NCBI RefSeq assembly: GCF_039541235.1
Contig: NZ_BAABFV010000001.1
Span: forward strand, 496,001 to 560,000
Length of the DNA: 64,000 nt
DNA from: Kangiella marina
GTDB taxonomy: Bacteria; Pseudomonadota; Gammaproteobacteria; Enterobacterales; Kangiellaceae
Direction: 5' to 3'
The notes beneath the pieces were generated by a model that saw nothing but the letters and a program-made list of their open reading frames with translations, did not search any database and was not told the DNA's origin. Positions 5,182 through 64,000 of this stretch are shown piece after piece. Within the stretch, counting starts at the first letter, position 1. Each line of letters begins with the position of its first letter. The position numbers and the translations under genes are program-made.

Positions 5182-5228
5182 TGCTAGCTATTTTTACGAT
5201 GGACTTCCAGTTTATTCTGAGAATAAGC

Positions 5229-45436: not shown

Positions 45437-46174
45437 TCAATACTCCCAGTCCTCATGTGCTAAAGGAGATGTATTTAGTAGTTTTCGTCTGGACTGCCAG
45501 TCTGGTAGGAATCTACCCATTAAAGACTTAAATCTTTCGTTATGATTTCGTTCATGCAAATGTATTAACTCATGAACGAGAATATACTCTAAGCATTGTA
45601 GGGGCTTTTTGGCCAACTCTAAGTTCATTAAAATTCGACGTTGCTCAATATTGCAACTTCCCCACTTAGTTCTCATTTTCCGAATTCCCCAACCGCTAAC
45701 AGAGCGATCCACAATTGGTTGCCACTTATCCAATAATTCAATAATTTTTTGGTTTAACTCAGCTCTGTACCAGGCACTCAGTAATTTTTCTTTGTTATGA
45801 ATTGAGCATCCAGGGTTTACAAGCATTTTTAACTTGCCGGACTTAAGTCTCTTGATTTCATGCTTTCCGTACCGCTCTATTAGTTCAAGGCGATATTTTT
45901 GCCCAAAAAAGTAATGACATTCACCCGAAATAAACTGTCTTTTTGATTGGCGGGGCTGTTCCTGAAAGTATTGTTGCTGTTTTTTTATCCAACTTAACTT
46001 TGAAATGACAGCTAATCGAATATTGTCATCAGTTGTACTATTGGGCACAGCAACACGAATATGACCACTGGGTGGGTAAACAGCTAAATGTAAGTTTTTA
46101 ATATCCTTTCGGACTATATGGACAGTGATACCATTTACTGTCAGTGTAGACTTAGATTCTCCCGCCTTAGTCAT
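45437..46174 (-). CDS. YgjP-like zinc metallopeptidase (DUF45), restriction-operon associated
   Basis: 245-residue protein of the YgjP/WLM-related metallopeptidase group. It has the N-terminal NLHLAVYPPSGHIRVAVP block (27-44), WIKKQQ and the TKWGSC motif at 169-174. The zinc site is HELIH at 201-205 with third ligand H211 in ERNHNERF. All ligands are intact, so it should bind zinc. It overlaps the end of hsdR by 8 bp, so expression is tied to the restriction subunit. Relatives are often found with type I restriction genes, possibly controlling HsdR levels by proteolysis as ClpXP does in E. coli; that role is inference. Confidence 0.87.
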   Translation of the reverse strand: MTKAGESKSTLTVNGITVHIVRKDIKNLHLAVYPPSGHIRVAVPNSTTDDNIRLAVISKLSWIKKQQQYFQEQPRQSKRQFISGECHYFFGQKYRLELIERYGKHEIKRLKSGKLKMLVNPGCSIHNKEKLLSAWYRAELNQKIIELLDKWQPIVDRSVSGWGIRKMRTKWGSCNIEQRRILMNLELAKKPLQCLEYILVHELIHLHERNHNERFKSLMGRFLPDWQSRRKLLNTSPLAHEDWEY

Positions 46175-49100
46175 ATTCTTTCTGATTTTTGACTATTTCC
46201 ATAACACTATCAACATCTACTTTATATTCACCAATCTCTTCTTTAACAGCATTTTCTACCCTTTTCCTTCTAAAGCGATTACTCTTCCAGTCTGCTTTTT
46301 TTGTATAGCGTATCGCTGTGTCAATCCGAGTAACAAGCTCTTCGTTTTGATCTAGATTATCATATAAAGATTGCTTCGCTTTAGTGTTCATAGACTTTGG
46401 ATAATTACTTTCACAGCTTCCATCGCTAGTAATACCTTCAGCAATTTTTTTAACTTGTTTTAAATACTCTTCATAACTAACAGCCTCTTCACGTCGCTGC
46501 TTGATTAAAGCATCGAGTAGTGCAGACATTTTGTCATAATACTTTGGATTAATCGGCTGTCCCTCAATAATGACTTTTCGAATATTATTTTCAATTGTCT
46601 CAGCCATTGCCTCTGGAACTTTTGTATTCTCTGGACTAGCTGGGTTTTGCTTTGATTTTTCAACAATTAACTCGATAAGTCCTAGCTTCTCAAAATCGAT
46701 AACCGTTTCACTATCTTCTGCTTTAATATAAGTATCAAGCAAACGCCTCATGGCGGGCTCATACTGCTTCATATCGACTTCATCTTTTGATGCAAGTTTA
46801 ATCTCTTTGCGCATATGGCTGAAATGCTCTACTTCCGCTTTAATATCTTTAGCTTCTTTGGCGTTGTAGCCCGCAGCATGCATTTCATTCGCCATATTAG
46901 AGTATGCACGCACCAAAGCGGCAACATTCTTGTACAATGTGACACGTTTAGACTCGTTAAGCTTCAAGTCTTCGCTTTTAGCCACATCCCCACAAAAATA
47001 GCGGATATAATCAATCAACTCCTTAGGTTCTAATACAGGTTCACAAAGAGCCTTAGTCGCCTCTCTAGCTTCTTCAAGCCGCTCTTTACTAGTAACGAGC
47101 CTATCCGTCAATAAACCTTGGACATCTTCTTTGTCGTAATCATCAAACGCTCCGCTGGTGTAGTCGCTAATCGATGACTCCAAACTATGAAAAAGGTCTT
47201 TATAGTCAATGACATAACCATACTCTTTATCTTCACCATCGAGACGATTAACCCGGCATATTGCCTGAAACAACCCGTGGTCTTGCATCTTTTTATCAAT
47301 ATACAAATAGGTGGCTGAAGGTGCATCGAAACCAGTCAGCAACTTATCCACCACAATCAAAAGCCGCATTTGCCCTGGCTCTTTTTTGAAGAGTTTCTTA
47401 GCTTTAGTTTCAAAATTCTCCGCTTTCTTAATCGCTTCTTCTTTGGGGATTTCATAAAAATCAGCGAGCATTTGCTGATAAATTTCATACTGATGGAGTT
47501 TTTCAGTTGCGCCAGCTCCAGTTTCTTCTCCTTTGATATCATTGGGTGATGGCAAATAACTGGTAACAATAGCGCACTTATCTTTTAAGTCAGTCTTCCT
47601 AAATAATTCATAAACCTTACAAGCTTGATAAATGTTGGCACAAACTAACATGGCGTTACCCCGCCCATCTGCTAGACGTGGCTTGGTTTTCATGTCTTTC
47701 CAGATATCGTTGACGATCATCCCCAAGCGCTCCTGACTTGAAAGGACTTTTTGCATCGTTCCCCAACGTTGCTTTAACTGTACCTTAGCCATATCAGTTA
47801 AGCCCTTAGTGTTGATATCAAACCACTCATCAATCCTTTCTGGTTTACGAATATATTGGTCGATATCCCTTGCCTCATATTGCAAGTCTAATACAACCCC
47901 GTCTTCGACAGCTTCATCAAACTTGTAGGTATGAATAAAGGAGCCAAAAACCTCAATACTTTTCTGCTTATCTTTTTTCAACAACGGCGTGCCAGTAAAG
48001 CCAACAAAAATAGCCTCTGGAAGAATAGCCTTCATGGCGGCATGCAGCTTCCCAGATTGAGTACGATGGCATTCGTCCACAAAGACAAACAAGTTGCCTT
48101 TAGCTTCAAAGTCTGTAGGTAAGTTATTTTTTAACTCTTCCAAATAATCGTCGGTCGCCTTGTCATCATTTTCATCATCGTTTGCGCTTTGACGACCAAA
48201 CTTATGAATCAAAGAACAAATAAGCCACGGTTCAGCTTCATTCAAGATACTAACTAAGTCAGCACCACTCTTACTACGCCTAATGTCTTCATCAACGCCT
48301 TTAAAAACACCTTCAATCTGCTCATCAAGTTCAGTTCTATCAGTTATTACCAGCACTCTGGCGTTATTAACATGCTCCCTTATCCATTTTGCTAACCAAA
48401 CCATGGTCAAGCTTTTACCCGATCCTTGTGTGTGCCAAATAATTCCACCGTCTTTTTTCTCCAGGCGCTCCTGTGAAGCTTTAACACCAAAGTACTGGTT
48501 TTGACGACAGGTTTTCTTGTAGCCTGCGTCAAACACAACAAAGTCATGAATAATTTCAAGGAGCCGTTCTTTATTACAAAGGTTACAGATATCGAAATCC
48601 AAAATTTCGTCTGTATAACTCACGTCATTAATAGATAAGTGCTTGCTGCTTCGCTCATCAGCGTCTGGAGTATAATCGGGGTTTTCTTCTTTCCAGGTAT
48701 AGTAGTGACTTTCGGGTGTTCCTATCGTTCCATAACGTAGTCCCTCAGTATCGTTTCCGGCCATAACTAGCTGTACTGTGCTATAAAAGTCACGGATAAA
48801 AGATTTCTTTTGGTTATCAAGGTTTTGGCGAATGCCTTCTGTTACCGATACTGATGAGCGCTTTAGCTCAATAACACCTAAAGCAATACCATTCACATAC
48901 AAAACAATATCCGGGCGTTTGTTGTTTTGTCCTTTGACAGTGACCTCTTCTGCGATAGCAAAATGGTTATTTGAAGGATTATTCCAATCAATTAGCCAAA
49001 CAGTCTTGGTCGTTTCCCCCTGACCTTGGCGTACTTTGACACCATAACGTAATAAGCTATAAATATCTTTATTGGCATGATAAAGCTTTTTACCATCGCC

Positions 49101-49316
49101 CATAGTCGCAGCGAGCTTAAACTGGCGAATAGCCTTGGTGATAATGGAGTCACCAACCCCTTGCTTAATAAGCCAAGAACGCACATACTCCTCTTCGATA
49201 CAAGAATTACTCTCACGGTCTTGCCAATCACCATAGTAATCATAACCGAGTTGATTTTGAAACAGTGTAACCACGCGATTTTGAGTGGCACGCTCCTTTT
49301 GCCCTACTTTACTCAT
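46167..49316 (-). CDS. hsdR: type I restriction enzyme, R subunit
   Basis: Motor and nuclease subunit of a type I restriction system, 1049 residues. The PD-(D/E)XK nuclease is N-terminal, with RPDIVLYVNGIALGVIELKRS containing D136, E150 and K152. The SF2 helicase follows with Walker A TQGSGKS at 296-302 and DECH at 414-417. VGFTGTPLLKKDK and the second RecA domain (LLIVVDKLLTGFDAPSATYLYIDK, QAICRVNRL) complete it. The C-terminal helical region presumably binds the methylase. All catalytic residues are present, so it appears functional. It overlaps hsdS by 4 bp. Confidence 0.96.
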   Translation of the reverse strand: MSKVGQKERATQNRVVTLFQNQLGYDYYGDWQDRESNSCIEEEYVRSWLIKQGVGDSIITKAIRQFKLAATMGDGKKLYHANKDIYSLLRYGVKVRQGQGETTKTVWLIDWNNPSNNHFAIAEEVTVKGQNNKRPDIVLYVNGIALGVIELKRSSVSVTEGIRQNLDNQKKSFIRDFYSTVQLVMAGNDTEGLRYGTIGTPESHYYTWKEENPDYTPDADERSSKHLSINDVSYTDEILDFDICNLCNKERLLEIIHDFVVFDAGYKKTCRQNQYFGVKASQERLEKKDGGIIWHTQGSGKSLTMVWLAKWIREHVNNARVLVITDRTELDEQIEGVFKGVDEDIRRSKSGADLVSILNEAEPWLICSLIHKFGRQSANDDENDDKATDDYLEELKNNLPTDFEAKGNLFVFVDECHRTQSGKLHAAMKAILPEAIFVGFTGTPLLKKDKQKSIEVFGSFIHTYKFDEAVEDGVVLDLQYEARDIDQYIRKPERIDEWFDINTKGLTDMAKVQLKQRWGTMQKVLSSQERLGMIVNDIWKDMKTKPRLADGRGNAMLVCANIYQACKVYELFRKTDLKDKCAIVTSYLPSPNDIKGEETGAGATEKLHQYEIYQQMLADFYEIPKEEAIKKAENFETKAKKLFKKEPGQMRLLIVVDKLLTGFDAPSATYLYIDKKMQDHGLFQAICRVNRLDGEDKEYGYVIDYKDLFHSLESSISDYTSGAFDDYDKEDVQGLLTDRLVTSKERLEEAREATKALCEPVLEPKELIDYIRYFCGDVAKSEDLKLNESKRVTLYKNVAALVRAYSNMANEMHAAGYNAKEAKDIKAEVEHFSHMRKEIKLASKDEVDMKQYEPAMRRLLDTYIKAEDSETVIDFEKLGLIELIVEKSKQNPASPENTKVPEAMAETIENNIRKVIIEGQPINPKYYDKMSALLDALIKQRREEAVSYEEYLKQVKKIAEGITSDGSCESNYPKSMNTKAKQSLYDNLDQNEELVTRIDTAIRYTKKADWKSNRFRRKRVENAVKEEIGEYKVDVDSVMEIVKNQKEYD

Positions 49317-50680
49317 ATCAGTCGAGTTCTCCCCGTCAATAGTTCTTGCATCATACCTTGTTTAATACTTTTAGTTTTATTAAGACGTTGCTTCAGTGCC
49401 TGAATCTCTTTGTCCATATCCGACAGGATGTTGGCGATGGCGGTTTGTTCAGCCGCATTTTGCGGAATGGCAACATGAGTACCATTAATCAGCTCGGTAT
49501 TCAGATTCATCTGTGATCCTGTCTGCCCCTGCTTACCCCACTCATCCTCAAGCTCTTTAAGGATGTAATACATGTAATCTTGATCTACTGAAAGCCCATT
49601 AAGCACTACAAACCCATCGTGGATACATAAATCTTTCTTAGTGATAATGGGTTTTCCAACCGTTGCACAGATACTCATAACTAAGTTATTCTTAGCCACA
49701 AATCGGCTATTGGCAATACCTAATTCTGAGAGGCTTTGCGTTGTCTCAGTTAAATACTTATTAGTTTTAGAAACATCAGAAATACGTAACCAACCAACTG
49801 TTGAATTTCGTTCAAACCAAATAGGATTATCTATTGGTCTTGGCGAAGCTCCTCTCTGAATCTTGGCTAGTTCCTCCATTTTAACAGCATCCCAATCCTC
49901 CGGTATTTCCCCCAACTCACTTGGCTCATAGCCTTTCTTTGAACCATCTTCGCGCAGGGAAAATTGTGGCAGTCGGGTACGGCCAGTGAGGAGCTGTTGC
50001 ATGGTAGCGGTTTTGATGGCCTGTTTTTTGGAGATCAACTTTTCCAGTACACTGATCAGAGCGTCAACGTCAGATAAAGCATTGGCAATGGCGGCTTGTT
50101 CGTCATGCTTTTTAGGTATGGGAACCAGATAATTAGCTACTGCTTTCTGGGATAAAGTCGGAATTGCACCACCAACAATTGTTTCTTCAATTTGGTTTTG
50201 CACAAGTTCAAATTGCATCACATAAGAAAGCAACGGACTTGGACACTTAACCTTTTTTAATACAACTACCTGCGGGTTTAGGGTTGCTTCACGCTCTAGG
50301 GAACTAACAAGCCCTACTTTTCCATAAGTTGAACCGGTTTTAACGAGTAACACATCGCCATTAAAGATTTGAATCTCAGGGGACTCATGATATTTCGACC
50401 ATGAGATATATGTGCAATGATCAAAATCTAAAGTACCTTGCAAAATATTTGAAGGGCTTATACTTAATACACCTTGATCTTGTTCTACGATGTCTGCCTT
50501 GGTATAACCCCTAAAACCTATACGTCCAAATATCGTACACAGACTCCCAATTGGAACAACTTCCCAATCCTCTGGAATAAGCCCAACTTCCGTTTGTTTG
50601 TAACCAACCGCCACAGTGCTCTCAGCCATTTCCGCTAGATAATTTGTATTTACTTCAGCTACTCCACTCATAACGCCCAC
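49313..50680 (-). CDS. hsdS: type I restriction enzyme, specificity (S) subunit
   Basis: Chooses the bipartite DNA target. The 455-residue protein has two target-recognition domains, each opened by a GLIPEDWEVV or GEIPEDWDAVKM block (near 33 and 255). Each is followed by a conserved helix (DEQAAIANALSDVDALISVLEKLISKKQAIK near 195-225; AEQTAIANILSDMDKEIQALKQRLNKTKSIK near 407-437). The two conserved helices each end in QQLLTGRTRLP or QELLTGRTRLI, the usual twofold repeat of HsdS. The start overlaps hsdM by 13 bp; ATG three codons downstream is an alternative start. Confidence 0.95.
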   Translation of the reverse strand: MGVMSGVAEVNTNYLAEMAESTVAVGYKQTEVGLIPEDWEVVPIGSLCTIFGRIGFRGYTKADIVEQDQGVLSISPSNILQGTLDFDHCTYISWSKYHESPEIQIFNGDVLLVKTGSTYGKVGLVSSLEREATLNPQVVVLKKVKCPSPLLSYVMQFELVQNQIEETIVGGAIPTLSQKAVANYLVPIPKKHDEQAAIANALSDVDALISVLEKLISKKQAIKTATMQQLLTGRTRLPQFSLREDGSKKGYEPSELGEIPEDWDAVKMEELAKIQRGASPRPIDNPIWFERNSTVGWLRISDVSKTNKYLTETTQSLSELGIANSRFVAKNNLVMSICATVGKPIITKKDLCIHDGFVVLNGLSVDQDYMYYILKELEDEWGKQGQTGSQMNLNTELINGTHVAIPQNAAEQTAIANILSDMDKEIQALKQRLNKTKSIKQGMMQELLTGRTRLI

Positions 50681-53121
50681 TCCACCCCCATGGCTTTTAA
50701 GTGGCCCGCCACTTTATCACTCAAGTTTTCTACCGACTGGGTAATAACAGGCAAAGGCTGGCTATAGCGTTCTTCCAGTTCTTTGACTCGGTTAGCTAGT
50801 TGCTGGGTGACACGTTCGATTTCAGCCTTGATATTGGCCTCTAGAGTCACAAGCCATTTAGCTTCGACGATAAGAGACTTAATTTCTTCCTCGGTTAATG
50901 TTGGATAGTGTTTCAATACGTCAACATCCAAGGCTTCTTGGGCTTCTTTTAACGCTTTTTTCCCCAGCGTCTCATCGTCGAAAAGCTGCTTGGCCTGCTT
51001 GAGTGCAGAGAGTTCCTCTTCATCTGTTGCTTCTTTAAGTCGAGTATTTATCGTGGTTTTGGTTACTTTATCCTTATCATTCATGGCTTCAGCCAGAAGT
51101 CCATCTTCACCTGTATGCTCTTCAATATAGCTTTCCAACTCTATAGTAACTCTATCCAGTTCTGACTGAATTTGTTCAATATTCGATTGCTGCCCTTTAA
51201 AGTATCGCTGAATAATTAAAGCTGGCGGAATGTGTTCTGCTCTGTACTTTTTCTTTTTTATTACCAGATCCGGTGTTTCTTTGAGTTTTTCGCCTTTTTT
51301 AGCCACCAGTTCTCGTAGTGTGGTTCCAGACTCCCAACCATCTTGAGCTATAACGTATACGTCGTCTTGCATCATTTCCGACCAATAGTCCATCAGAATT
51401 TGATAAATATCGTACTTACTTAATAGTGGGCTCTTGGAATAGCTGTCTAACAAATCTTCACTGATATCATGAATAATAGCTTTAGGTTGTTCGCCTGGCT
51501 GAATAGATTTTAAATTGACTCTTTCAGCCCATTGGTGAAAAGGTTGCAGGCTTTCTTCAGCGAACTGTTTGAATTCGCGATGATTTAGAATGGTACTTTT
51601 TACTTCATTGGCTTTTACTAATGCTTTACTGTAGCCCTCGCGCTCAGGCTCGAATAAAGTTTCTCTCAGGCTAGGGAATACCTGCCAATAATCCTTTAAC
51701 GCATCAATATCAGCGTTAGGAATCCCACCTTGTAAGTGACCGCTTAGATCATGTAGATCCTCTTCTACCGAACTATCTATATAACGGGGAATGTTGAGAT
51801 TATATTGATGCTGCTCTATTTCAGAGAAGCTAACCATACGGCTATAGCGTGGTATTTCAATTTGATTATTAAAAACATCTACAATTTTATGGATATCCTG
51901 AGAGCGAAGGCGGTTTTTCGGGCCATCTTTCATAAATCCTTTACTGGCATCGATCATGAAAATCCCGCTTTCAGGATTGTTTAAACGTTTTTTTGCATCG
52001 GCTTTGTCAATCACGATGATGCAGGCAGGGATACCAGTTCCGTAAAATAGATTTGCGGGCAAACCGATAATACCTTTGATGTACCCTTGCTTTATTATGT
52101 TTCGGCGAATGGTAGCTTCAGAATTACCGCGAAATAATACACCATGTGGCAAAATAACAGCTGCTTTGCCTGTGCTCTTTAGAGATTTAAGGATATGCAG
52201 CAAAAATGCATAATCACCATTTTTTTCAGGAGGTGCGCCATACTCAAAGCGTTGATAAATATCAGCCCCATTATCATCAAGACGCATACCGCTGTTCCAG
52301 GCCTTAAAAGAGAAAGGAGGATTAGCTACAGCAAAATCAAACCGCTTTAGAGCTTCGTTACCTTCTTTAAATTCAGGTTCAGCGATAGTGCTGTGTCCAC
52401 CTGGAGCAATCTCCGCATCCGCATTATTATGCAAAATCATATTCATACGACACAATGCAGTCGTCGCGACATCCTTTTCTTGGCCGTAAATACTTAAACC
52501 ATTAATCGTTTCATCAGCCGCTTTCAATAATAAAGAACCTGATCCACATGTTGGGTCATACACAGTCTGATCTTGGCGTGTATCTTTAGTAATACCAACA
52601 ACTTTTGCGACGACACGGGAGACCTCTGCTGGTGTATAAAACTGTCCTTTGCTTTTACCTGACTCCGTTGCAAAGTTTCGCATCAAATATTCATACGCAT
52701 CACCCAGTAAATCATCCCCTTGTGCGCTATTGCTACCAAACTCAAGCCGTTCAAAAATACCAATCAACCGAGAAAGACGATCGACCATTTCCTTACCTTT
52801 GCCAAGGCGCTCCTCATCATTGAAGTCATTATCTTTATTAGCCAGCCAAGGCAACTCATTTTCCTTAGCAATCTGCTCTAACAAAATATTGAGCTTTTCA
52901 CCGATTTCCTTATCTCCTTTTAGCTCAACCATATCGTCAAAGCTACATCCCTTAGGTACGACAATTAAGGCCTTAGGCTCTTTTTTGTACTTATCTGAAA
53001 CATACTTAAGGAACAGAAAGGTCAGAACATAATCTTTATATTGTGAGGCATCCATACCACCTCGTAATTCATCACAACTTGCCCAAAGGGAAGAATATAG
53101 TTCTGTTTTTTTAATGGCCAT
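50668..53121 (-). CDS. hsdM: type I restriction enzyme, methyltransferase (M) subunit
   Basis: Adenine-N6 methyltransferase subunit, 817 residues, much longer than E. coli HsdM (529). An N-terminal helical HsdM domain (1-135) and GQFYTPAEVSRVV at 159-171 precede the AdoMet-binding DPTCGSG at 189-195. The catalytic NPPF lies at 267-270. The long C-terminal extension (about 570-817) is charged and largely coiled coil, as in the HsdM subgroup that goes with long-form systems. It is the first gene of the five-gene operon; a weak GGAA lies upstream of the ATG. Confidence 0.95.
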   Translation of the reverse strand: MAIKKTELYSSLWASCDELRGGMDASQYKDYVLTFLFLKYVSDKYKKEPKALIVVPKGCSFDDMVELKGDKEIGEKLNILLEQIAKENELPWLANKDNDFNDEERLGKGKEMVDRLSRLIGIFERLEFGSNSAQGDDLLGDAYEYLMRNFATESGKSKGQFYTPAEVSRVVAKVVGITKDTRQDQTVYDPTCGSGSLLLKAADETINGLSIYGQEKDVATTALCRMNMILHNNADAEIAPGGHSTIAEPEFKEGNEALKRFDFAVANPPFSFKAWNSGMRLDDNGADIYQRFEYGAPPEKNGDYAFLLHILKSLKSTGKAAVILPHGVLFRGNSEATIRRNIIKQGYIKGIIGLPANLFYGTGIPACIIVIDKADAKKRLNNPESGIFMIDASKGFMKDGPKNRLRSQDIHKIVDVFNNQIEIPRYSRMVSFSEIEQHQYNLNIPRYIDSSVEEDLHDLSGHLQGGIPNADIDALKDYWQVFPSLRETLFEPEREGYSKALVKANEVKSTILNHREFKQFAEESLQPFHQWAERVNLKSIQPGEQPKAIIHDISEDLLDSYSKSPLLSKYDIYQILMDYWSEMMQDDVYVIAQDGWESGTTLRELVAKKGEKLKETPDLVIKKKKYRAEHIPPALIIQRYFKGQQSNIEQIQSELDRVTIELESYIEEHTGEDGLLAEAMNDKDKVTKTTINTRLKEATDEEELSALKQAKQLFDDETLGKKALKEAQEALDVDVLKHYPTLTEEEIKSLIVEAKWLVTLEANIKAEIERVTQQLANRVKELEERYSQPLPVITQSVENLSDKVAGHLKAMGVEWAL

Positions 53122-53443: not shown

Positions 53444-53534
53444 TGGCGGAGAGGGTGGGATTTGAACCCACGAAGGGCTACAAACCCTTGCTGGTTTTCA
53501 AGACCAGTGCATTCAGCCGCTCTGCCACCTCTCC
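53444..53534 (-). tRNA. tRNA-Ser (anticodon UGA)
   Basis: The acceptor GGAGAGG pairs with CCTCTCC, discriminator G, with encoded CCA. The anticodon loop CTTGAAA gives UGA. A long variable arm (AAGGGTTTGTAGCCCTT) marks a class II serine tRNA. It borders the accessory block on its 3' side. Confidence 0.97.
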
Positions 53535-53636: not shown

Positions 53637-56600
53637 TTAATATTTACCCACGAAGTTGATAAACCAGCCTTCGTAGTTGAAGTCTAGGTTAGCTAGGTTG
53701 TCGCTGAACTCGGTGAAGTTGTAGCCTAAACCAATCTTGAAGTTGTTGCTGATGTGGTAATCCGCTCCGGCTAACCAACCTTCGCGTTCGTCTTGGCTTT
53801 CTTCAAGTTCTAACCAACGGTACTCTAGCAATGCGTCCCATTCGCTGATTAGGTGGTAACGAGTTTGGGCTGCATATAAGTTGGCTGTACTTTTGAACCA
53901 CTGACCTGAGCCGCGGTTTTCGCGGACTTGACCACGGCGGTGTGCGACTTTGGCGGCGACTTTCCAGCGTGGGTTAAAGCTGTAGATACCTTCGAATGAG
54001 TAGATATCTGACTTCTGGTCCGCACCCGTGGTGACTTGCGCTAGCGTTCTTAGGTCATATAGGTAGGTATATTTACCTAACACTGCCCAGCGGGTGTTAT
54101 CAACAGGACGGTATGCGAAACCTAAGTTACCTTCGACGAATTTCGCGTTTTGTGCTGGGTCGATAAGGTCTTCAGTGTCGGCGTAGTTAATACGCGCGGC
54201 TAAACGCCAGTCTTCAGTTAAGCGATAGGTTAAGCGGTTGGTGGTTAACCATTGCTCACGCTCTTCTGCCCCGCTATCTTCACGGTATTCGATTTTCGAG
54301 CTCCAGTCAGCGTCTTTCGAGCGGTAGCCACCACTAATGGTTGCTGCCTGGCGGTCTACTGGGCCTGAAAGCGCATCAAGATTACCGTCCTGTAAGTTGA
54401 AGCCAATGGTCCAGCCTTGCGATGGGTAGTAGTCCATACCGAAGGTGTGCACGATGCCTGATTCTTGTGGCGCCTTGAAGTGTTGGCTTTCGTTATAAAT
54501 CGTCACTTGGTTCGATAGGCGAAGTTTTTGCCCCAATACGATACCGTCGTTAATTTGCGAGCCGAACACGTTTTGCGTGGTGTCTGTCGAATAGGTGTAA
54601 CGACCATACACTTGGTGCTCGTTGTTGATCTGGTATTCCGCAGTTAAGCTGGCGGCGTCACCACGGTGCCCTGTGGTATATTCTGCGCCAATCGACGAGC
54701 GATCACCGAACAAGTAGCGTGTACCCAATGTGAATAAATCATTGTTATCGTACTCGCCACCATCGTTTTCTAGCGTAAATTGGCCTATACCGTAAACATC
54801 CCACGTTTCACCGATACGCTGGTTATATTGAAGTGCAGCTAACGTAGCCGACGTTTCGACGCCCAGAATGGTTTCTTCCAGTTGACGTAGTTCAGTGGTG
54901 ATATCAATCTTTGGCGTAATCTGATAATTCACGCCGACTTGTGCCTGGCGTAAGCTGTTATCAGCACCACGTTCATAATTGCTTGCGCGAGTGGTGATCG
55001 ATACTTTATCAGTAAAGTAGCCGTTTACCTCTGCGCCTGTTTCAGTAGTCTCTTCGTTTAGCGTACGACGAGCGACCGAGAAGCCTGCGTCGGTTTCACG
55101 GTGCCATGCGCCGGCTTTCCATTCATGCTCAGACCAGCCTAACTCTTTAAAGTTAGCGCGAGCTTCGACGGAGTAAGCGCCGCCATTCTTGTCGGTCACT
55201 TCTTCTGTCGGATCAGGCACGACTTCATCAAAAGTGAAACCACCGTTATCCGAGAAGAAGGTTGCTGCCTGATTCGCTTCAGAATCAGCTGACTCAACTT
55301 TAAGGTAAGTGCCGCGACCTGCTTGTAGCGTGACGTCTACGCCCGCTAACTGGTAATCATCACCGGAGCGATTTTCATCAACGAAAGTACCGCCGACGGC
55401 CACATGTTCACCCAACCATACTTTTGCGCGACCACCTAATGTGGTGTTATCGGCTTCAAAGCCTGTTGGGCGGTATTCATAATCCACCAATAAGACGTTA
55501 TCAAAACCATCTAAAGGCTGATCACGAATAATGGTGTCTAGATTACGACGCGAAATTTGTGATAAAGGCGTAGTCAGGATAATACGACCTTGTAGCTCGT
55601 CGATTTCGTAATCAGCGCCACGCTGTAAATCAACGCGCGTTTCGACGCGGCCTGTGGTGCTATCACGAACTTCTAAGGTAATTTTGTCTGAGCCAGGCAA
55701 AATGTCAGTATGCTTTAAGTAATACAAGCTACCGCCAGTTCCTAAGAACTCAACGTGGCCCAGTGCCGTTTGTGCTTCAGAGGCAAAGGCTTTCACTTGA
55801 GTTTTCGCTTCACCAAGCTCAGTGGTATCAAGAGAGCGCCAGTTAATCGCTGCACCATAAAGCGAGCGCGAATACTGGGCAAATTCGTTACCTGTAATAC
55901 CCGTATTAAAGTTACCCCAAAGCGCTTGGCTCTTATCCCAATCGACGCGAACGTAGAAGCGACCTTGCGTATCGACGTCACGATACGTTGTGGAATCATC
56001 GCCATAGACAGGATAATAACGGTCAGGGTCCAACCGGCGGAAAATATCCTGCGGATCTTTATCCAAGAAGCCATCAAACATTTCGTCTAATTCACGCTCT
56101 TGCGTATCCGCCTGTGCCGTTATTAAGTATTTACCTTTGATCTTACCTTTTAAGTAAAATGCTAAACGTCCTTCCATTAAGAAGTCGTCTTCAAACTGAT
56201 CGCCTTCATCTACTGCTTGAATACTGTCCGAAACAGAATTCTTAGAAGCGGTTAAGTCCGCCAACGCGACCATGAACATATGTTCACCAGTCACATCAAC
56301 CGTCATTTGGTTAACGATTTGCTCGGCTTCATCATTACCAATAACCACATTAAAGTTATGTTGGCCGACAGGCAGTAGATATTCGGCAACGAAACGACGC
56401 TCTAAATCAATAGGAATAATATCGCCATTAATTGTTAGCGGCTGGTTTTCAGGAATATCTTGACCAAAAATACGCACACGGGATCCGTAAATCGGAATGT
56501 TTTGCTGACGCAAATTGTTCTGACCAAAAGTTTCACTTTCAATCAGTTGATTAGTGATTTGCTGATCTGAAATATCATCTTCGGATTCACCACGTCGAAC

Positions 56601-57353
56601 TTGGTCCGCAAACTGCGCAATATTATTTTTCTTTTCTTCCGGGGAAACCAGTAACAAGCCCTTCGTCGTGGTTTCATCCATGCGCCCTTCTTTATCGTAG
56701 GCACGAAGGACATAAATCAGTCTATCGCCCTGCACTAAAGGACGATCGAGCGTTAACTCACCATCCCACGCGTAGCGACCATTATTGGTTACTTCCAATG
56801 ACTCTGTCGCCAAGGGCGTGACTAAGTCAGTATCGTTAGCGTCGAAAATAGTAAGCTCTAAGCGATCAATAAAAGCTGCGTAGTTTGAGTAGTAACTAAA
56901 GTTAACCGGCTCGACAATACGGCCATCTTCAAAGGCTACAACAGTGGTACCACTAACGCCAAGAGCTGGCGGCGTTAAGGCTGGATCTTCCGTCGCCCAC
57001 ATAATACCGCCGTTAGGAAGCTGTACCAGCATTCTCCCCGTAACATCAGCACGCTTTTGATCAGGTCTAAAGCCAGCTTCGTTATAGGAGTAAATATCTC
57101 GATAACCAACATCGACACGACGATCTTGGTTCATTTCAGACTCATTAACCGCCGTCGCTGCCGATTCTCCCTGGCTTTTGACTCTGAAAATCAAACCTTC
57201 TTCAGTTTTACATTTAGTACTGTCGCAGCTGAAATCCTTCTCAGAATCGCTTTGTTCAGCGCTAAACGCTTGTGGCGCAAGACTGAATAAGATAGCACCC
57301 AAACCAAAGCTCAGTAACGGCTGTGTGATATGCCTTACCATCAACTTACTCAT
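53637..57353 (-). CDS. large outer-membrane beta-barrel protein paired with giant repeat protein
   Basis: 1238-residue predicted outer-membrane protein. A signal peptide (about 1-32, ending AFSA) is followed by a periplasmic or surface beta-rich region (about 50-390, with repeated strand-loop domains). The segment after it (about 395-560) includes RYYPVYGDDSTTYRDVDTQGRFYV. A long C-terminal barrel of alternating strands (about 630-1238) ends NFVGKY, an aromatic end suited to outer-membrane assembly. The ATG at 57353 is preferred over GTG at 57362 because GGAGG lies 8 bases before it. It overlaps the giant protein gene's stop by 8 bp, so the two are translationally coupled. The function is not recognised; export, anchoring or display of the giant protein is inferred. 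Confidence 0.82.
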   Translation of the reverse strand: MSKLMVRHITQPLLSFGLGAILFSLAPQAFSAEQSDSEKDFSCDSTKCKTEEGLIFRVKSQGESAATAVNESEMNQDRRVDVGYRDIYSYNEAGFRPDQKRADVTGRMLVQLPNGGIMWATEDPALTPPALGVSGTTVVAFEDGRIVEPVNFSYYSNYAAFIDRLELTIFDANDTDLVTPLATESLEVTNNGRYAWDGELTLDRPLVQGDRLIYVLRAYDKEGRMDETTTKGLLLVSPEEKKNNIAQFADQVRRGESEDDISDQQITNQLIESETFGQNNLRQQNIPIYGSRVRIFGQDIPENQPLTINGDIIPIDLERRFVAEYLLPVGQHNFNVVIGNDEAEQIVNQMTVDVTGEHMFMVALADLTASKNSVSDSIQAVDEGDQFEDDFLMEGRLAFYLKGKIKGKYLITAQADTQERELDEMFDGFLDKDPQDIFRRLDPDRYYPVYGDDSTTYRDVDTQGRFYVRVDWDKSQALWGNFNTGITGNEFAQYSRSLYGAAINWRSLDTTELGEAKTQVKAFASEAQTALGHVEFLGTGGSLYYLKHTDILPGSDKITLEVRDSTTGRVETRVDLQRGADYEIDELQGRIILTTPLSQISRRNLDTIIRDQPLDGFDNVLLVDYEYRPTGFEADNTTLGGRAKVWLGEHVAVGGTFVDENRSGDDYQLAGVDVTLQAGRGTYLKVESADSEANQAATFFSDNGGFTFDEVVPDPTEEVTDKNGGAYSVEARANFKELGWSEHEWKAGAWHRETDAGFSVARRTLNEETTETGAEVNGYFTDKVSITTRASNYERGADNSLRQAQVGVNYQITPKIDITTELRQLEETILGVETSATLAALQYNQRIGETWDVYGIGQFTLENDGGEYDNNDLFTLGTRYLFGDRSSIGAEYTTGHRGDAASLTAEYQINNEHQVYGRYTYSTDTTQNVFGSQINDGIVLGQKLRLSNQVTIYNESQHFKAPQESGIVHTFGMDYYPSQGWTIGFNLQDGNLDALSGPVDRQAATISGGYRSKDADWSSKIEYREDSGAEEREQWLTTNRLTYRLTEDWRLAARINYADTEDLIDPAQNAKFVEGNLGFAYRPVDNTRWAVLGKYTYLYDLRTLAQVTTGADQKSDIYSFEGIYSFNPRWKVAAKVAHRRGQVRENRGSGQWFKSTANLYAAQTRYHLISEWDALLEYRWLELEESQDEREGWLAGADYHISNNFKIGLGYNFTEFSDNLANLDFNYEGWFINFVGKY

Positions 57354-60300
57354 GGCTCGCACCTCCGTCTAGAGTTTCAAACTCTGTTGGAGCCATCTCA
57401 ATTCTAACTTTCTTAATCAACTCTTTACCTAAATATTGATTCAATGCAGTATAAACTGCATCAGCGCGCTTTAAACCAAGGCGGTAGTTATATTCCGCGC
57501 TACCTCGACTATCTGCATAACCAGATACCCAAATAGCTCCCCCGCCTTTTGCTTTTAAATAATTTGCTATCGACTCAAGTACCGTCTGATGACTTTCGTC
57601 AATCGATGCTTTATCGGTATCGAAGAAGAACTGACCTATTTCAATCCTCTCTCCAATGGTAATAAATTTTCGACCTTGTACCATTTCGGCTGGGTGAGTA
57701 TTAATGGTCACTTTAACGTTTTGAACAATATCCTTGTTCACTCTCCCAAGAATCGCTTCGCGTAAAACAACCGCTCTATCAAGAGCAATCGGGACAGCGC
57801 CACCATAACCATCAATGGTTAAAGTCGCTCCTTTAGCACGATTGATTTTATCAGCCATATTCTCTATGGCAGACTGGTATTGGTCTTTAATCTCAGTGCT
57901 ATTGTCATCAAAAATAACCGTGCCCATTTCGATCTCGAGAATTTTAGGCTTATTAAAACTTGATTCCTTAGGCTCTGGTAGCTTAATTCCAAAGTCAAAT
58001 CGAGTTGACATACCTTGAGTTAAGCGCTGAACCCTTGGGTTCTCAGTCGTGAATACACTACCCGCTGGTAACGTCGCTGGATCAACTTTCATGATGAAGT
58101 TTTTACCGCGGCCATAATTGTCAACATCAAGTGCATTTAAGTGGAATCGACCGTATGCATCGGTCTCGACAATCAAACCTTCCACCGTAGCAATACGAAC
58201 ACCCGGCACACCACGCTCATAAATACCGTAGTTACTGATGACAAAATCAACGCGATAACTCTCACCAACACGAGTGATACGACGTTCAACTCTGATATCT
58301 TGCCCTGACAAACCATCTGCGACATCACCTGATTGCTCGACACGTGTCTTGCCTTCAGCATCCATCAAGACTTTTGTGCCTTCGTCAGTGGTTAAAACAA
58401 AGCCGTCGGTGAAGCGTGGTTCACTCATCAGCTGAGAAATAACCATCTTATGGTTCGATGCAGGATCCATCACTGAGTTACGACCACGTAGTGTGCCTAA
58501 CTCAATACCGTGATTTATCGGTGCACTAGCATCAGCTTTAGGTTGCGGACCGTTGCCGCGATCAACCGTGGTAGAGTCTGCGATATAAGTCGACTCATCA
58601 ATACCACCGCTTACGCGGATACCCGATGCTGTCGCATCATCCTGCCAGCCGTCGCCGTCACGGTCATTAAACACTTTGCCCATGATCGTCGCTTGTTCAA
58701 AATCTGGATCTGCGGTCATGAAAACAGATGCTGTCGCCGTATTACTGACTTTGTCGCCGTTGAAGTAAGCAGTAACACTGTTGATATGTTCAGAGCCTAC
58801 TGCCGATGGCCCAACTCGCATCATGTATTTAATCGTTGCTGTCTCGCCTTGACTTACGTCTACCCCTTCGAACTGTAGCGGCCTATACGGCGTTATGACG
58901 TTATTTTCAGCGTTAGGATCATCGATTTCACCACTGTTATCAACGTAGCCAAAACCAAGCGGCGGGGAATCCATAACTAAGACATCAGCGGCATCGGCCG
59001 TTCCGACATTCTCTACGGTAATGGTGTAATTGACAAAGTCACCCAGCTTCACCTGATCAGTATTAACGGTTTTTACGATTCGCAACTGTGGCTTTTCGGA
59101 CTGCTCAATAATCAACTCGCCCGCAGTAGAATCATCAGCTGTATTGCCAGCGGCGTCACTCACGCTTGCTGTCACATCATAAGTGCCGTCTGTCAGAACA
59201 TCAGAATCCGGAATGGTCAATACCCAAGTACCATCACCGTTATCCACCAGGTTGCCGTCACCTTCAGTGTAGGCAATACCGTGGACTGTGACGCTTAACT
59301 CATCACTGCTATCCGCAGTACCGGTAATGGCTGGTGTGTTGTCGTTGGTGGTTTGTACGTTCACTGTTGGTGTCGTGATTTGAGTATCGACCACCATCTC
59401 ATCAGTTGTTGTATCGGATGCTGTATTGGTGCCATCAGTGACCGTCGCCACGACATCATAAGTACCGTCAGCAATCTCGTTACCCGCTGGGATGGTCAGT
59501 GTCCAAGTGCCGTCACCATTATCCACCAAATTGCCATCACCCTCGGTGTAAGTCACGCCATTAACAGTGACGCTTAAGTCATCGGCGCTGTCTGCGGTAC
59601 CTGTGATGATAGGTGTGCCATCGTTGATAATTAACGAATCCACTGTAGGCGTCGTGATTTGAGTATCAACCACCAACTCGTCAGTGGTTCCATCACTCAC
59701 AGTATTAACGCCATCAGTCACCGTTGCTGCAACGTCATAGGTATCATCAGGTAACTCACTGCCAACAGGTACTGTTAAGCTCCAGGTATCATCACCATTA
59801 TCTACTAAGTTGCCATCGCCCTCAGTGTAAGTCACGCCATTAACAGTAACGCTTAAATCATCCGTGCTATCAGCAGTACCAGTAATCACAGGTGTACTGT
59901 CATTGGTGGTTTGTACGTCCACCGTTGGCGTCGTGATTTGGGTATCGATTACAAGCTCATCCGTTGTTGTATCGGATGCCGTATTCACACCATCGGTTAC
60001 CGTTGCAGTGACCTCATAAGTCCCGTCAGCTAACTCACTGCCGGCTGGAATGGTCAATGTCCAAGTGCCGTCACCGTTATCAACCAAGTTGCCATCACCC
60101 TCGGTGTAAGTCACGCCATTAACGGTGACGCTTAAATCATCCGCGCTATCAGCTGTCCCCGAAATAACAGGGGTATCATCGTTAGTCGTTAATGCGTTTA
60201 CTGTTGGCACAGCAACAGCAGTATCGACAACTAATTCACTGGCGGTGCTATCAGTTAAGGTATTAGTGCCATCAGAAGACTGAGCAACCACATCGTAGGT

Positions 60301-63300
60301 TCCATCAGGAATTTCATTACCCGTGGGGATTACTAATGTCCAAGTATTATCACCATTATCCACTAGGTTGCCGTCACCTTCGGTGTAGGTGACGCCATTG
60401 ACGGTGACGCTTAAATCGTCAGCACTGTCAGCTGTACCGGTTATCGTTGGCGTGCTGTCATTAGTGGTTTGAGCGTTGACCGTTGGTACAGTTTCTGTCA
60501 CGTTTTCAACCGTTACTGTCGCTAACTCAACGGCTGTATTGCCATCACTATCGGTGGCCGTGATTTGAACCTCATAGACATTATTAGTATCCGCATCCGC
60601 AGGACTCTCGAAGTCTTGTGCGGCGAGTGTTAATTCGCCAGTATTGGCGTCAATCGTAAACAAGCCTTGATCCGCGCCGCCAGTAATTGTGTAAGTCACG
60701 GTGCCTACAGGTGCATCGCCCGGTGATAAGTCAGCAGGTGCTGTAGTGTGCGCAGTATTTTCAGCAGCGCTTTCATTGATGGCGGCAATATCTAAGTTTG
60801 CAGTTTCCGCCACATCAGTGACTTCGACCGTCGCCAGTTCATTCGCTGTATTGCCGTCGCTGTCCGTTGCTGTGATCTGCACTTGGTAGATATTGTCTGC
60901 GTCCGCATCTGCCGGGTTCTCGAAGTCTTGTGCGCCAAGGGTCAATTCACCCGTCGATGCGTCAATCGTAAACAGTGCTTGATCAGCGCCACCAGTAATG
61001 GTGTAAGTCACCGCACCAACAGGCGTGTCTCCGGGAGATAAATCAGCTGGTGCGGTAGTGTGTGCCGTGTTTTCTGCCGTCGACTCAGTAATGGGGGCAA
61101 TGTCCAATGCTGCCGCTTCATTCACGTCTGTCACAGTCACTGTGGCGTCTTCACTTGCCGTATTCCCTGCTGAGTCTGTCGCAGTTATTTGAACCTCGTA
61201 CACATTGTTCGAATCCGCATCCGCAGGGCTTTCAAAGTCTTGCGCGGCCAGTGTTAACTCACCGGTATTGGCATCAATCGTAAACAAACCTTGATCCGCA
61301 CCGCCAGTAATACTGTAAGTCACCGCACCAACAGGCGTATCTCCGGGAGATAAGTCAGCAGGTGCCGTGGTATGCGCGGTATTTTCTGGCGTTGACTCAC
61401 TGATTGGAGCGATATCAAGATTTCGGTCATCATCAGCAATAGTTACGGTGTCACTCGCATTATTAATGTTGCCGCTTGAAACTGCGGTAATGGTTCCAAC
61501 CACCGTTTCATCACCTTCGACAGTATTATCATCAATGACCTCAACTGCTACCGTGGCTGTGGTGTCACCGGCAGCTATGACAACAGAGGTTGTTCCGTCG
61601 GCGCCCGTTAAACTGTAGTCGGATGCTTCCGTTGCCGTACCTGAGTAGTTGATCGTTACGGTAGTGTCTGTAGTGCTTGTGTTACTTAAACTGATCGTAA
61701 ACTCACCATCAGTTGCAGGCTCCGAAGCGGCTAGCGTTGCTGCAATAGAAACCTGTAAACTTTCATCGTCAGTAATAGTTCCTGTCGCGGTATCGCTATC
61801 CGTCACTAAGGTATTCACAGCGTTTAAGTTAACGGTAAAGGTTTCATTTCCTTCTGAAATAGCATCATCAACAATCGTGACATCAAAAGTCTGTGCTTCG
61901 CCATTGGTGCCGGCAAAAGTTACAGTGCCAGCCGTACTGTCATAATCAGTACCGCCACCTGTTGCCGTACCATCAGTGAAGCTATAGTTGACATCAGTTC
62001 CACCAGCGACTTCACCGTTTAAAGTAACCGTGAAAGTTGCTATACCAGCATTTTCATCAACCGTCACATCAGCAACAGTCACGCTAGCCGAGTCGTTATC
62101 TGAAATGGTTACCGTATCACTCGCAGTATTGATAGAGCCATTGCTAACCGCAGAGATCGTGGCTATGACGGTCTCATCACCTTCTAATACAAAGTCATCG
62201 ATGACGTTAACCGTTACTGTCGCACTCGTGGCACCCGCAGGAATAACCACACTGGTTGTTCCTGCGCCTCCGCTAAGATTGTAATCATCAGTATCTGTTG
62301 CAGTGCCTGTATAACCAATCGTTACGGTAGTATCAGTAGAGCTTGTGGTATTAAGGCTAATGGTGAACAAGCCATTAGCGCCGCCCTCAACGGCAGCCGA
62401 AGTCGCAGCAACCGACACTTCCAAGGTATCATTGTCGGTGATGGTGCCAGTAGCGGTATCCGTATCGGTTATAGAAGCGTTAACTGCATCGATATTAACG
62501 GTAAAGGTTTCCGCTTCTTCGACAATAGTGTCCTCATTGATAGTGACAACAAATGTTTGAGTCTCACCGGCGTTACCAACAAAGGTCACACTGCCAGCAG
62601 TATTAACAAAATCATCGCCACCAGTAGCAGTACCATTGGTAAAGCTGTAGTTTACATCCGTTCCGCCAGCCACATCACTATCCAATGTCACCGTGAAGGT
62701 AGCCGTCCCAGCAGCCTCGCTCACAGTCACATCATCAACCGTTACCGTCGCCGTATCATTATCGGTAATGGTAGCCGCACCTTGAGCATCACTAAAGCTC
62801 ACGCTGGCGTTACTCAAATTGGTTAAATCTAGAGAAAAGCCTTCGTCACTTTCGACGATTGTATCGTTCGTAATCGGCACATTGATGGTAATGGTTTCAC
62901 CACTATTACCAGTAAACGAGCCACTGCCAGAAGTCGCTGTATAATCACTACCCGCTGTCGCTGTACCGTCAGTTGTGGCGTAGTCAAAACTCACGCCACC
63001 ATCAACGTCACCCGTTAAGGTCACCGTGAAGACGGCATTAATTCCATCTTCTGCAACCGTCACGTTATTCACCGCAACCGAAGCGGTGTCATTATCCGTA
63101 ATCGTACCTGCGCCTTGAGCATCGCTGAAGCTGACGCTAGCATTACTTAAGCCGCTTAAATCAACGGTAAAGCCTTCATTGCCTTCAACGATGGCATCAT
63201 CGGTAATTGGCACCGTAATCGTTTGTGTCTCACCGTTCGTGCCGTTAAAGCTTAAACTGCCGCTCGCCGCAGTATAGTCACTGCCTGCCACCGCCGTACC

Positions 63301-64000
63301 ATCATTGGTGGCGTAATTGAGCGTGAAGCCATCTTGAACGTCGCCCGTTAACGTCACGGTAAAGGTCGCATTCGAGCCATCTTCGCCAATACTGACGTCG
63401 TCAATCGCCACCGTCGCCGTGTCGTTATCGGTAATGGTGCCTTGGCCTTGATTGTCCGAGAAGGTAACGCTCGTATTATCCAGATTACTTAAATCAAGGG
63501 TGAAGCCTTCATTGCCTTCAACCACCGCATCGTCAGTGATCGGCACATTAATCGTAATCGTCTCACCATTGGTACCGGTAAAGGTTTCCGTACCAGAAGT
63601 CGCGGTGTAATCGCTGCCCGCTACTGCAGTACCGTCGGTCGTGGTGTAGTTGAAACTCACCCCGCCTTGAACGTCGCCCGTTAACGTCACCGTAAAGACG
63701 GCGTTAATACCATCTTCCGCCACCGTGACATCATTCACCGCCACCGTCGCGCTGTCATTATCCGTGATCGTGCCCAAGCCTTGATCATCGGCAAAAGCCA
63801 CACCGGTGTTATCCAAGTTGCTTAAGTCCAGCGTGAAGGTTTCATTGCCCTCGACCACTGCATCATTGGTAATCGGCACATTAATCGTCACCGTCTCACC
63901 ATCGTTTCCGACAAAACTTCTAGTTCCTGAAACAGCAGTATAATCGTCACCCGCCGTCGCTGTGCCATCGGCTGTCGTAAAGTCTAGGTTGAAGCCATTC
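57346..64000 (-). CDS. giant surface repeat protein with C-terminal OmpA domains (5' end outside window)
   Basis: At least 2217 codons, open to the window edge with no start in view. From the N-terminal side there are about eight Calx-beta repeats, three cadherin-like repeats (each with ESTAENTAHTTAPADLSPGD or similar), and five Ig-like repeats of about 94 residues. One DUF11 domain (LRIVKTVNTDQVKLGDFVNYTITV), an SdrD-like FNDRDGDGWQDD segment and further beta-rich modules follow. Two OmpA-like domains end the protein. The last (FFFDTDKASIDES to YADSRG...KRADAV) keeps the peptidoglycan-binding Asp and Arg; the one before it lacks the Asp. It is probably a cell-surface or periplasmic adhesin tethered to peptidoglycan, working with the barrel protein encoded 8 bp into its end. 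Confidence 0.9.
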   Translation of the reverse strand, partial: NGFNLDFTTADGTATAGDDYTAVSGTRSFVGNDGETVTINVPITNDAVVEGNETFTLDLSNLDNTGVAFADDQGLGTITDNDSATVAVNDVTVAEDGINAVFTVTLTGDVQGGVSFNYTTTDGTAVAGSDYTATSGTETFTGTNGETITINVPITDDAVVEGNEGFTLDLSNLDNTSVTFSDNQGQGTITDNDTATVAIDDVSIGEDGSNATFTVTLTGDVQDGFTLNYATNDGTAVAGSDYTAASGSLSFNGTNGETQTITVPITDDAIVEGNEGFTVDLSGLSNASVSFSDAQGAGTITDNDTASVAVNNVTVAEDGINAVFTVTLTGDVDGGVSFDYATTDGTATAGSDYTATSGSGSFTGNSGETITINVPITNDTIVESDEGFSLDLTNLSNASVSFSDAQGAATITDNDTATVTVDDVTVSEAAGTATFTVTLDSDVAGGTDVNYSFTNGTATGGDDFVNTAGSVTFVGNAGETQTFVVTINEDTIVEEAETFTVNIDAVNASITDTDTATGTITDNDTLEVSVAATSAAVEGGANGLFTISLNTTSSTDTTVTIGYTGTATDTDDYNLSGGAGTTSVVIPAGATSATVTVNVIDDFVLEGDETVIATISAVSNGSINTASDTVTISDNDSASVTVADVTVDENAGIATFTVTLNGEVAGGTDVNYSFTDGTATGGGTDYDSTAGTVTFAGTNGEAQTFDVTIVDDAISEGNETFTVNLNAVNTLVTDSDTATGTITDDESLQVSIAATLAASEPATDGEFTISLSNTSTTDTTVTINYSGTATEASDYSLTGADGTTSVVIAAGDTTATVAVEVIDDNTVEGDETVVGTITAVSSGNINNASDTVTIADDDRNLDIAPISESTPENTAHTTAPADLSPGDTPVGAVTYSITGGADQGLFTIDANTGELTLAAQDFESPADADSNNVYEVQITATDSAGNTASEDATVTVTDVNEAAALDIAPITESTAENTAHTTAPADLSPGDTPVGAVTYTITGGADQALFTIDASTGELTLGAQDFENPADADADNIYQVQITATDSDGNTANELATVEVTDVAETANLDIAAINESAAENTAHTTAPADLSPGDAPVGTVTYTITGGADQGLFTIDANTGELTLAAQDFESPADADTNNVYEVQITATDSDGNTAVELATVTVENVTETVPTVNAQTTNDSTPTITGTADSADDLSVTVNGVTYTEGDGNLVDNGDNTWTLVIPTGNEIPDGTYDVVAQSSDGTNTLTDSTASELVVDTAVAVPTVNALTTNDDTPVISGTADSADDLSVTVNGVTYTEGDGNLVDNGDGTWTLTIPAGSELADGTYEVTATVTDGVNTASDTTTDELVIDTQITTPTVDVQTTNDSTPVITGTADSTDDLSVTVNGVTYTEGDGNLVDNGDDTWSLTVPVGSELPDDTYDVAATVTDGVNTVSDGTTDELVVDTQITTPTVDSLIINDGTPIITGTADSADDLSVTVNGVTYTEGDGNLVDNGDGTWTLTIPAGNEIADGTYDVVATVTDGTNTASDTTTDEMVVDTQITTPTVNVQTTNDNTPAITGTADSSDELSVTVHGIAYTEGDGNLVDNGDGTWVLTIPDSDVLTDGTYDVTASVSDAAGNTADDSTAGELIIEQSEKPQLRIVKTVNTDQVKLGDFVNYTITVENVGTADAADVLVMDSPPLGFGYVDNSGEIDDPNAENNVITPYRPLQFEGVDVSQGETATIKYMMRVGPSAVGSEHINSVTAYFNGDKVSNTATASVFMTADPDFEQATIMGKVFNDRDGDGWQDDATASGIRVSGGIDESTYIADSTTVDRGNGPQPKADASAPINHGIELGTLRGRNSVMDPASNHKMVISQLMSEPRFTDGFVLTTDEGTKVLMDAEGKTRVEQSGDVADGLSGQDIRVERRITRVGESYRVDFVISNYGIYERGVPGVRIATVEGLIVETDAYGRFHLNALDVDNYGRGKNFIMKVDPATLPAGSVFTTENPRVQRLTQGMSTRFDFGIKLPEPKESSFNKPKILEIEMGTVIFDDNSTEIKDQYQSAIENMADKINRAKGATLTIDGYGGAVPIALDRAVVLREAILGRVNKDIVQNVKVTINTHPAEMVQGRKFITIGERIEIGQFFFDTDKASIDESHQTVLESIANYLKAKGGGAIWVSGYADSRGSAEYNYRLGLKRADAVYTALNQYLGKELIKKVRIEMAPTEFETLDGGASHE
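59100..60490 (-). repeat. five tandem Ig-like repeats in the giant gene
   Basis: Units of about 282 bp (94 codons) each contain TPxITGTADSxDDLSVTVNG, then YTEGDGNLVDNGDxTW and DGTYDV. Several 60-90 bp stretches are almost identical between units at the DNA level, so unit number may vary by recombination. Confidence 0.85.
60490..61430 (-). repeat. three tandem cadherin-like repeats in the giant gene
   Basis: Units of about 315 bp share TYxITGGADQxLFTIDAxTGELTL and VxITATDSxGNTA. The calcium-binding style DxNxP/DxD patterns of cadherin repeats are present in part. Confidence 0.8.
61430..64000 (-). repeat. tandem Calx-beta repeats in the giant gene (continue outside window)
   Basis: Repeats of about 333 bp (111 codons) have the pattern VAVNDVTVAEDG, FTVTLTGDVxGG, GTAxAGSDYTAxSG, GETxTIxVPITxDAxVEGNE and GTITDND. 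The units nearest the window edge are the most alike, and the later ones diverge. The array runs off the edge. Confidence 0.88.

Follow-up and report, generated by a model that had tools for sequence, protein, structure and literature searches.

A giant repeat protein of Kangiella marina and its co-inherited large barrel partner: a candidate two-gene surface-fibre system

The gene pair

What do a giant repeat protein and a large barrel protein do together when their genes overlap, and could the barrel provide both the exit and the holder of the giant? The question is raised by one end of a 64,000-nucleotide stretch of the Kangiella marina genome (2.51 Mb), here called the window, where both genes lie on the minus strand:

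53637..57353, minus strand: barrel gene, 1,238 aa (ORF list, AlphaFold2 model, homologues)
57346..64000, minus strand: giant gene, C-terminal 2,217 codons (ORF list and genome sequence)
57346..57353, minus strand: 8 bases, ATGAGTAA, shared by the start of the barrel gene and the stop of the giant gene
57361..57366, minus strand: GGAGGT, strong ribosome site for the barrel protein, lying within the giant gene

The barrel gene starts with an ATG at 57353 and the giant gene ends at 57346. A sequence-only reading of the window had reported this overlap together with the 1,238-residue barrel and its strong ribosome site, all of which we confirmed. It had also argued that the overlap implies joint action; an overlap of 8 bases is ordinary translational coupling and not special evidence, so that argument falls, while joint action itself is borne out by the comparisons across genomes below. 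The next feature downstream of the pair is a tRNA-Ser (53444-53534), and a type I restriction-modification set, recognised by eye from the translations, lies just downstream at 46167-53121.

The giant protein

Extended to its start, as the same reading had proposed, the giant gene comprises 5,382 codons (about 546 kDa) and begins beyond the window, reaching G000:C1:569494. Its start is Sec-like by eye, as are those of several homologues, and the protein contains 818 Asp and Glu residues against 76 Lys and Arg. The part within the window is arranged as follows:

59092..64000, minus strand: repeat stalk of Calx-beta, cadherin and Big_13 domains (Pfam)
58714..59091, minus strand: anchor part 1, DUF11 (CLIPPER) domain with a Lys-Asp-Asn triad
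57967..58692, minus strand: anchor part 2, SdrB-like domain, with conservation highest over the final 80 residues
57682..57966, minus strand: anchor part 3, degenerate OmpA-like domain
57349..57681, minus strand: anchor part 4, peptidoglycan-type OmpA domain (PF00691, 3.9e-16)

Over the whole giant, Pfam recognised 33 Calx-beta stretches (25 + 8), three Cadherin and five Big_13 domains, which gives the protein the long stalk of tandem Ig-like repeats found in Gram-negative fibrillar adhesins. Such adhesins have been treated in general (PMC9210967), and forms with OmpA-like anchors have been described (PMC12617251, PMC10952558). The Kangiella giant shares with the latter the Ig-like stalk and the C-terminal OmpA domain; it differs in that its stalk is mainly Calx-beta and that no N-terminal adhesive domain was recognised in it by Pfam. 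One of the published Gram-negative fibrillar adhesins, B9T28_05395 of A. silvestris (PMC12617251), corresponds to the giant of one of our loci (L119; 9ifr, E 6.7e-69), in which a barrel homologue lies directly downstream. This homologous giant carries GEVED and the N-terminal adhesive domain CshA_NR2. Surface adhesion, as the sequence-only reading had suggested, is therefore likely, with a surface location that we infer. In the available main texts of PMC12617251 and PMC10952558 the adhesin alone is treated, and barrel, periplasm and translocat- are absent from both.

The last 581 residues of the giant (4802-5382) form the conserved anchor. The Lys, Asp and Asn of the isopeptide site are present in 56 of 56 two-gene anchors, which suggests an isopeptide bond within the DUF11 domain. 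The Asp was matched by alignment column, as the published Asp number, once shifted to suit Lys and Asn, lands one residue before the aligned Asp. The terminal OmpA domain matches solved OmpA/Pal domains; among 43 anchor rows its Asp527 is kept in at least 90% and its Arg542 is invariant. These are the conserved residues of the peptidoglycan-type OmpA domain that we take to bind the peptide, and the giant's domain presumably binds peptidoglycan in this way.

The barrel protein

The barrel protein has a signal-peptide-like start followed by two Ig-like domains and a very large beta-barrel, modelled by AlphaFold2 with pLDDT 78.4 and pTM 0.73:

56259..56936, minus strand: N1 and N2, Ig-like domains, residues 140-245 and 270-365 (model strands)
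53640..56282, minus strand: barrel region, residues 358-1238 (model, fold matches)

Glucodextran_B matches in five of 17 barrel homologues support N1 and N2. The barrel region of the model has 42 strands of at least 8 residues, 37 of which lie outside a conserved insert, and we predict about 36-38 membrane strands, with an insert that may plug the pore. The longest fold match among solved structures is SprA, the type 9 translocon. This match is no better than those to LptD or TonB receptors, and the highest Z belongs to OprC (14.9, rmsd 21.4); the likeness to SprA thus appears to be generic barrel similarity, and we do not claim homology. FimD and TonB receptors were further fold matches, and Foldseek also returned a Deinococcus S-layer complex and SlpA entries.

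The barrel falls under no Pfam or NCBIfam model, in keeping with the earlier suggestion that it lies outside the named exporter families. Neither SprA nor PorP_SprF matched any of the 17 homologues (NCBIfam, E <= 10; Pfam, E <= 1). The Omp85 family (type Vb) appeared as PF01103 in a single homologue at E 0.068, and the usher family is absent from the 18 Pfam families that match these proteins, which places the barrel in neither the type Vb nor the chaperone-usher class. Barrel profiles gave no match to PDB sequences, with two chance-level matches at E <= 10, and the A. silvestris barrel searched alone gave none. In a literature search with most subscription journals outside its scope, we recognised no publication describing this family.

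Two candidate assignments were rejected. Plasmid-borne homologues are mostly annotated as hypothetical protein or TonB-dependent receptor, and no TonB-receptor family was found for the 17 homologues in Pfam or NCBIfam. For T11SS, the link to DUF11 is a paper mainly on DUF1194 in which DUF11 is named in passing.

Coupling of anchor and barrel across genomes

The same draw of 398 Pseudomonadota genomes was searched with the barrel (E <= 1e-3) and with a DUF11-SdrB profile (E <= 1e-20). The barrel was found in 58 genomes and the anchor in 51, with both in 50, the barrel only in eight and the anchor only in one (Fisher p ~7e-54, not a strict probability because genomes are related). Homologues occurring usually alone, which would have counted against the pairing, are thus not what is seen. 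Three of the barrel-only genomes (G183, G282, G447) have weaker DUF11 and SdrB matches on the barrel's own chain; the other five are G148, G235, G264, G279 and G325.

Anchor and barrel are also neighbours. A barrel is adjacent on the same strand to 54 of 59 anchors, 53 of which precede it and one of which follows it (G238). Four of the remaining five anchors lie at contig ends (G260 twice, G109, G313), and the fifth, G337:C67, has a divergent barrel downstream. A scan of genome contigs confirmed 585 barrel relatives, the best 80 of which were kept as loci. The anchor gene adjoins the barrel in 78 of these best 80, the other two being cut inside the barrel, and no more than 150 bases separate the giant's stop from the projected start of the barrel in 73 of the 78; in four the distance is slightly greater, and in one (L073) the order is reversed. 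Reversed loci (L073, and L168 of G238) have the barrel first and the giant second, still as neighbours. In Roseovarius sp. THAF9 the pair (WP_152477347.1 and WP_152477346.1) is annotated as 'DUF11 domain-containing protein' and 'TonB-dependent receptor', with a one-base overlap. Distances among anchors correlate with those among barrels (r = 0.947, 56 pairs; none of 2,000 permutations as high), to which shared species history contributes. The barrel is therefore a strongly co-inherited partner of the giant's anchor.

The closest named relatives of the barrel among the best 80 of 585 are from Kangiella. Within the genus its presence is patchy (12 of 20 genomes, G000-G019; two of the eight without it are incomplete). 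Some Pseudoxanthomonas and Stenotrophomonas genomes have two or three pairs (L059/L061, L062/L079/L089). The barrel of L020/L169 (G138) is split between two reading frames, with ORFs of 1,122 and 180 aa, which could be a broken gene or an assembly error. Weak relatives of the barrel core on two cyanobacterial plasmids (L176, hits H22 and H23, E ~1e-11) suggest that the family may reach beyond Pseudomonadota.

A movable OmpA module

Forty further stretches were chosen from 58 + 13 positive genomes; two of the stretches (L147 and L165) hold upstream DNA only. Depending on the relative, one, two or three genes carry the modules. The OmpA domain is on the giant and the barrel is separate in Kangiella and Xanthomonadales. 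At three loci (L126, L127, L130) the giant ends at SdrB and is followed by the barrel and then by a separate protein with two OmpA stretches, which has a lipoprotein-like start in L126 and L130. OmpA precedes the barrel in one chain in L128, L131 and L132 (by Pfam) and in L016. Anchor and barrel are fused in a single chain at 13 loci (L133 and twelve others), in the order anchor, (OmpA), Ig, barrel; Pfam found OmpA in the fusions of L143, L038 and L039 and not in those of L133, L145, L152 and L155. By Pfam, peptidoglycan-type OmpA is likewise absent from six of seven further barrel chains (L134-L137, L139, L141) and OmpA from the giant of L137. The giants of these six loci terminate in a domain whose profile is related to that of the degenerate OmpA-like domain of Kangiella (hhalign probability 92%, E 5e-7). 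Our in-house OmpA profile was less sensitive than Pfam, having missed L128, and it gave a weak match in L129 that Pfam did not see.

Stalks vary freely in type and length, with DUF7507 in Stenotrophomonas and Thermomonas and SpaA_3 with He_PIG in Halopseudomonas. As judged from these domain arrangements, the core that stays constant consists of DUF11-SdrB and the barrel. Peptidoglycan-type OmpA is a movable and optional module and therefore does not define the system. The earlier reading had called the giant peptidoglycan-bound. The OmpA domain and its conserved Asp and Arg agree with this in Kangiella; as a general statement it is too firm, OmpA being optional and located variously on the giant, in the chain of the barrel or on a protein of its own, or else not found by Pfam. 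That reading is thus right in substance and partly supported, with its peptidoglycan claim over-firm.

How the giant might be exported and held

In many other bacteria, relatives of the two genes are neighbours, and this hints at a hitherto undescribed mode of presenting sticky fibres on the cell surface. The reading that we favour, at about an even chance, is a two-gene surface-fibre system in which a fibrillar adhesin has a cognate barrel as its anchoring point and probably its exporter. The giant would enter the periplasm via Sec, and its anchor, consisting of the isopeptide-locked DUF11, SdrB and OmpA-like domains, would dock on the barrel, at the outer membrane or beneath it. Translated together with the giant, the barrel protein with its two Ig-like domains would take up the giant, give passage to the stalk and retain the anchor, so that the N-terminal end and the repeat stalk end up outside the cell. 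The OmpA domain would brace the complex on peptidoglycan.

The sequences themselves show the pairing, the fusions, the redistribution of modules, the triad and the OmpA residues; the surface location, the direction, the passage through the barrel pore, the isopeptide bond and the binding of peptidoglycan are our interpretation. If the stalk is outside and OmpA sits on peptidoglycan, a single chain spans the outer membrane with one end on each side, for which a dedicated pore holding the chain at its anchor is the simplest reading. The order of modules in the one-chain forms fits such a pore. Points that speak against this reading are the generic nature of the fold match to SprA, the insert that may block the pore, the lack of a recognised adhesive domain in the Kangiella giant, the barrel chains on which Pfam finds no peptidoglycan-type OmpA and the presence of a GspD in Kangiella.

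The nearest working analogue is found in type 9 secretion. SprB needs SprA for its passage and the adjacent barrel SprF for exit and holding, and PorE-PorP-PG1035 provides a link to peptidoglycan (PMC9143113, PMC12618676). Both these systems and the Kangiella pair combine a giant or cargo having a conserved C-terminal domain with an adjacent cognate barrel and a peptidoglycan-binding OmpA partner, although the Kangiella barrel differs from the 14-stranded FadL type and the anchor is DUF11-SdrB. SprA and PorP_SprF gave no match in the K. marina genome, a weak result since control genomes gave none either.

The SprB-SprF precedent also provides the strongest rival, in which the barrel only holds the C-terminal anchor and some other path takes the giant across the outer membrane. 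We consider this unlikely but worth weighing. GspD is present in Kangiella, where export by the T2SS is possible. Among 25 carriers picked of the 58, GspD is above the cut-off in 15, and all 25 have some lower secretin match; as a general route the T2SS is disfavoured because GspD misses the cut-off in the other ten. Nor does a common second partner occur near the pair: ORF clustering of the best 80 loci revealed no third universal gene, a response-regulator-like family being found in just 22. SprF is moreover 14-stranded, and the Kangiella barrel is predicted to be far larger. The barrel may itself constitute a secretion route, a tentative view to which we give somewhat less than an even chance.

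Another possibility is that the giant stays in the periplasm, or reaches no farther than the membrane, and joins the barrel in fastening the outer membrane to peptidoglycan in the manner of OmpM or SlpA. The OmpA domain and the Foldseek matches to the Deinococcus S-layer complex and SlpA are consistent with such a brace. It is improbable in view of 5,382 residues of rod-like repeats, which hardly fit the periplasm, of stalks that vary freely and include an adhesive domain, of patchy presence in the genus and of forms without recognisable peptidoglycan-type OmpA.

Equally doubtful is an usher-like platform that displays several secreted DUF11-type proteins, the giant being one of them; FimD is among the fold matches and DUF11 proteins occur near some barrels, but the next downstream feature in the window is a tRNA and no usher family is among the matches of the 17 homologues. 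One or two small DUF11 proteins lie just upstream in eight of 11 one-chain loci examined of the 13 (L142, L143, L145, L157-L160, L164), most with starts that look signal-like by eye, and could be separate cargo. The first gene downstream of the barrel encodes a DUF11 protein in nine of 62 loci (L051, L063-L065, L070, L087, L109, L113, and L073, where it is the locus's own giant), 18 of the 80 being left out as their barrel ORF was lost in picking. At other loci, other signal-bearing proteins, judged by eye, come first downstream.

Two further adhesins are comparable to the giant. AtaA is likewise very long and braced by a periplasmic partner, TpgA, but makes its own trimeric barrel (PMC13082670), whereas in the two-gene form here the barrel is one large chain encoded separately. 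TpgA is peptidoglycan-associated according to NCBIfam. BapP of Pseudoalteromonas tunicata shares Calx-beta and Big_9 domains, a predicted Sec signal and an unsettled export. It differs in its length (1,600 aa), in neighbour genes for a putative ABC exporter and in that OmpA is unmentioned in the available passages (PMC12153261).

Significance

An adhesin with a cognate outer-membrane partner is a known kind of system, to which we assign the present pair. OmpA-anchored fibrillar adhesins are already catalogued, in passages that, as far as they were searched, do not address the crossing of the outer membrane. A barrel partner in 58 of 398 genomes turns the exit and retention of these giants into a two-gene experimental question. 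We put forward, with a probability that falls a little short of one half, that the barrel family is a new, self-contained, Sec-dependent translocon of SprA-like size in Pseudomonadota. The isopeptide-locked DUF11-SdrB module would act as both export signal and stop, the stalk would exit via a dedicated pore with about 36-38 strands, and an exchangeable OmpA module would bolt the machine to peptidoglycan. If this is true, the barrel would supply the export route that is missing for Gram-negative fibrillar adhesins.
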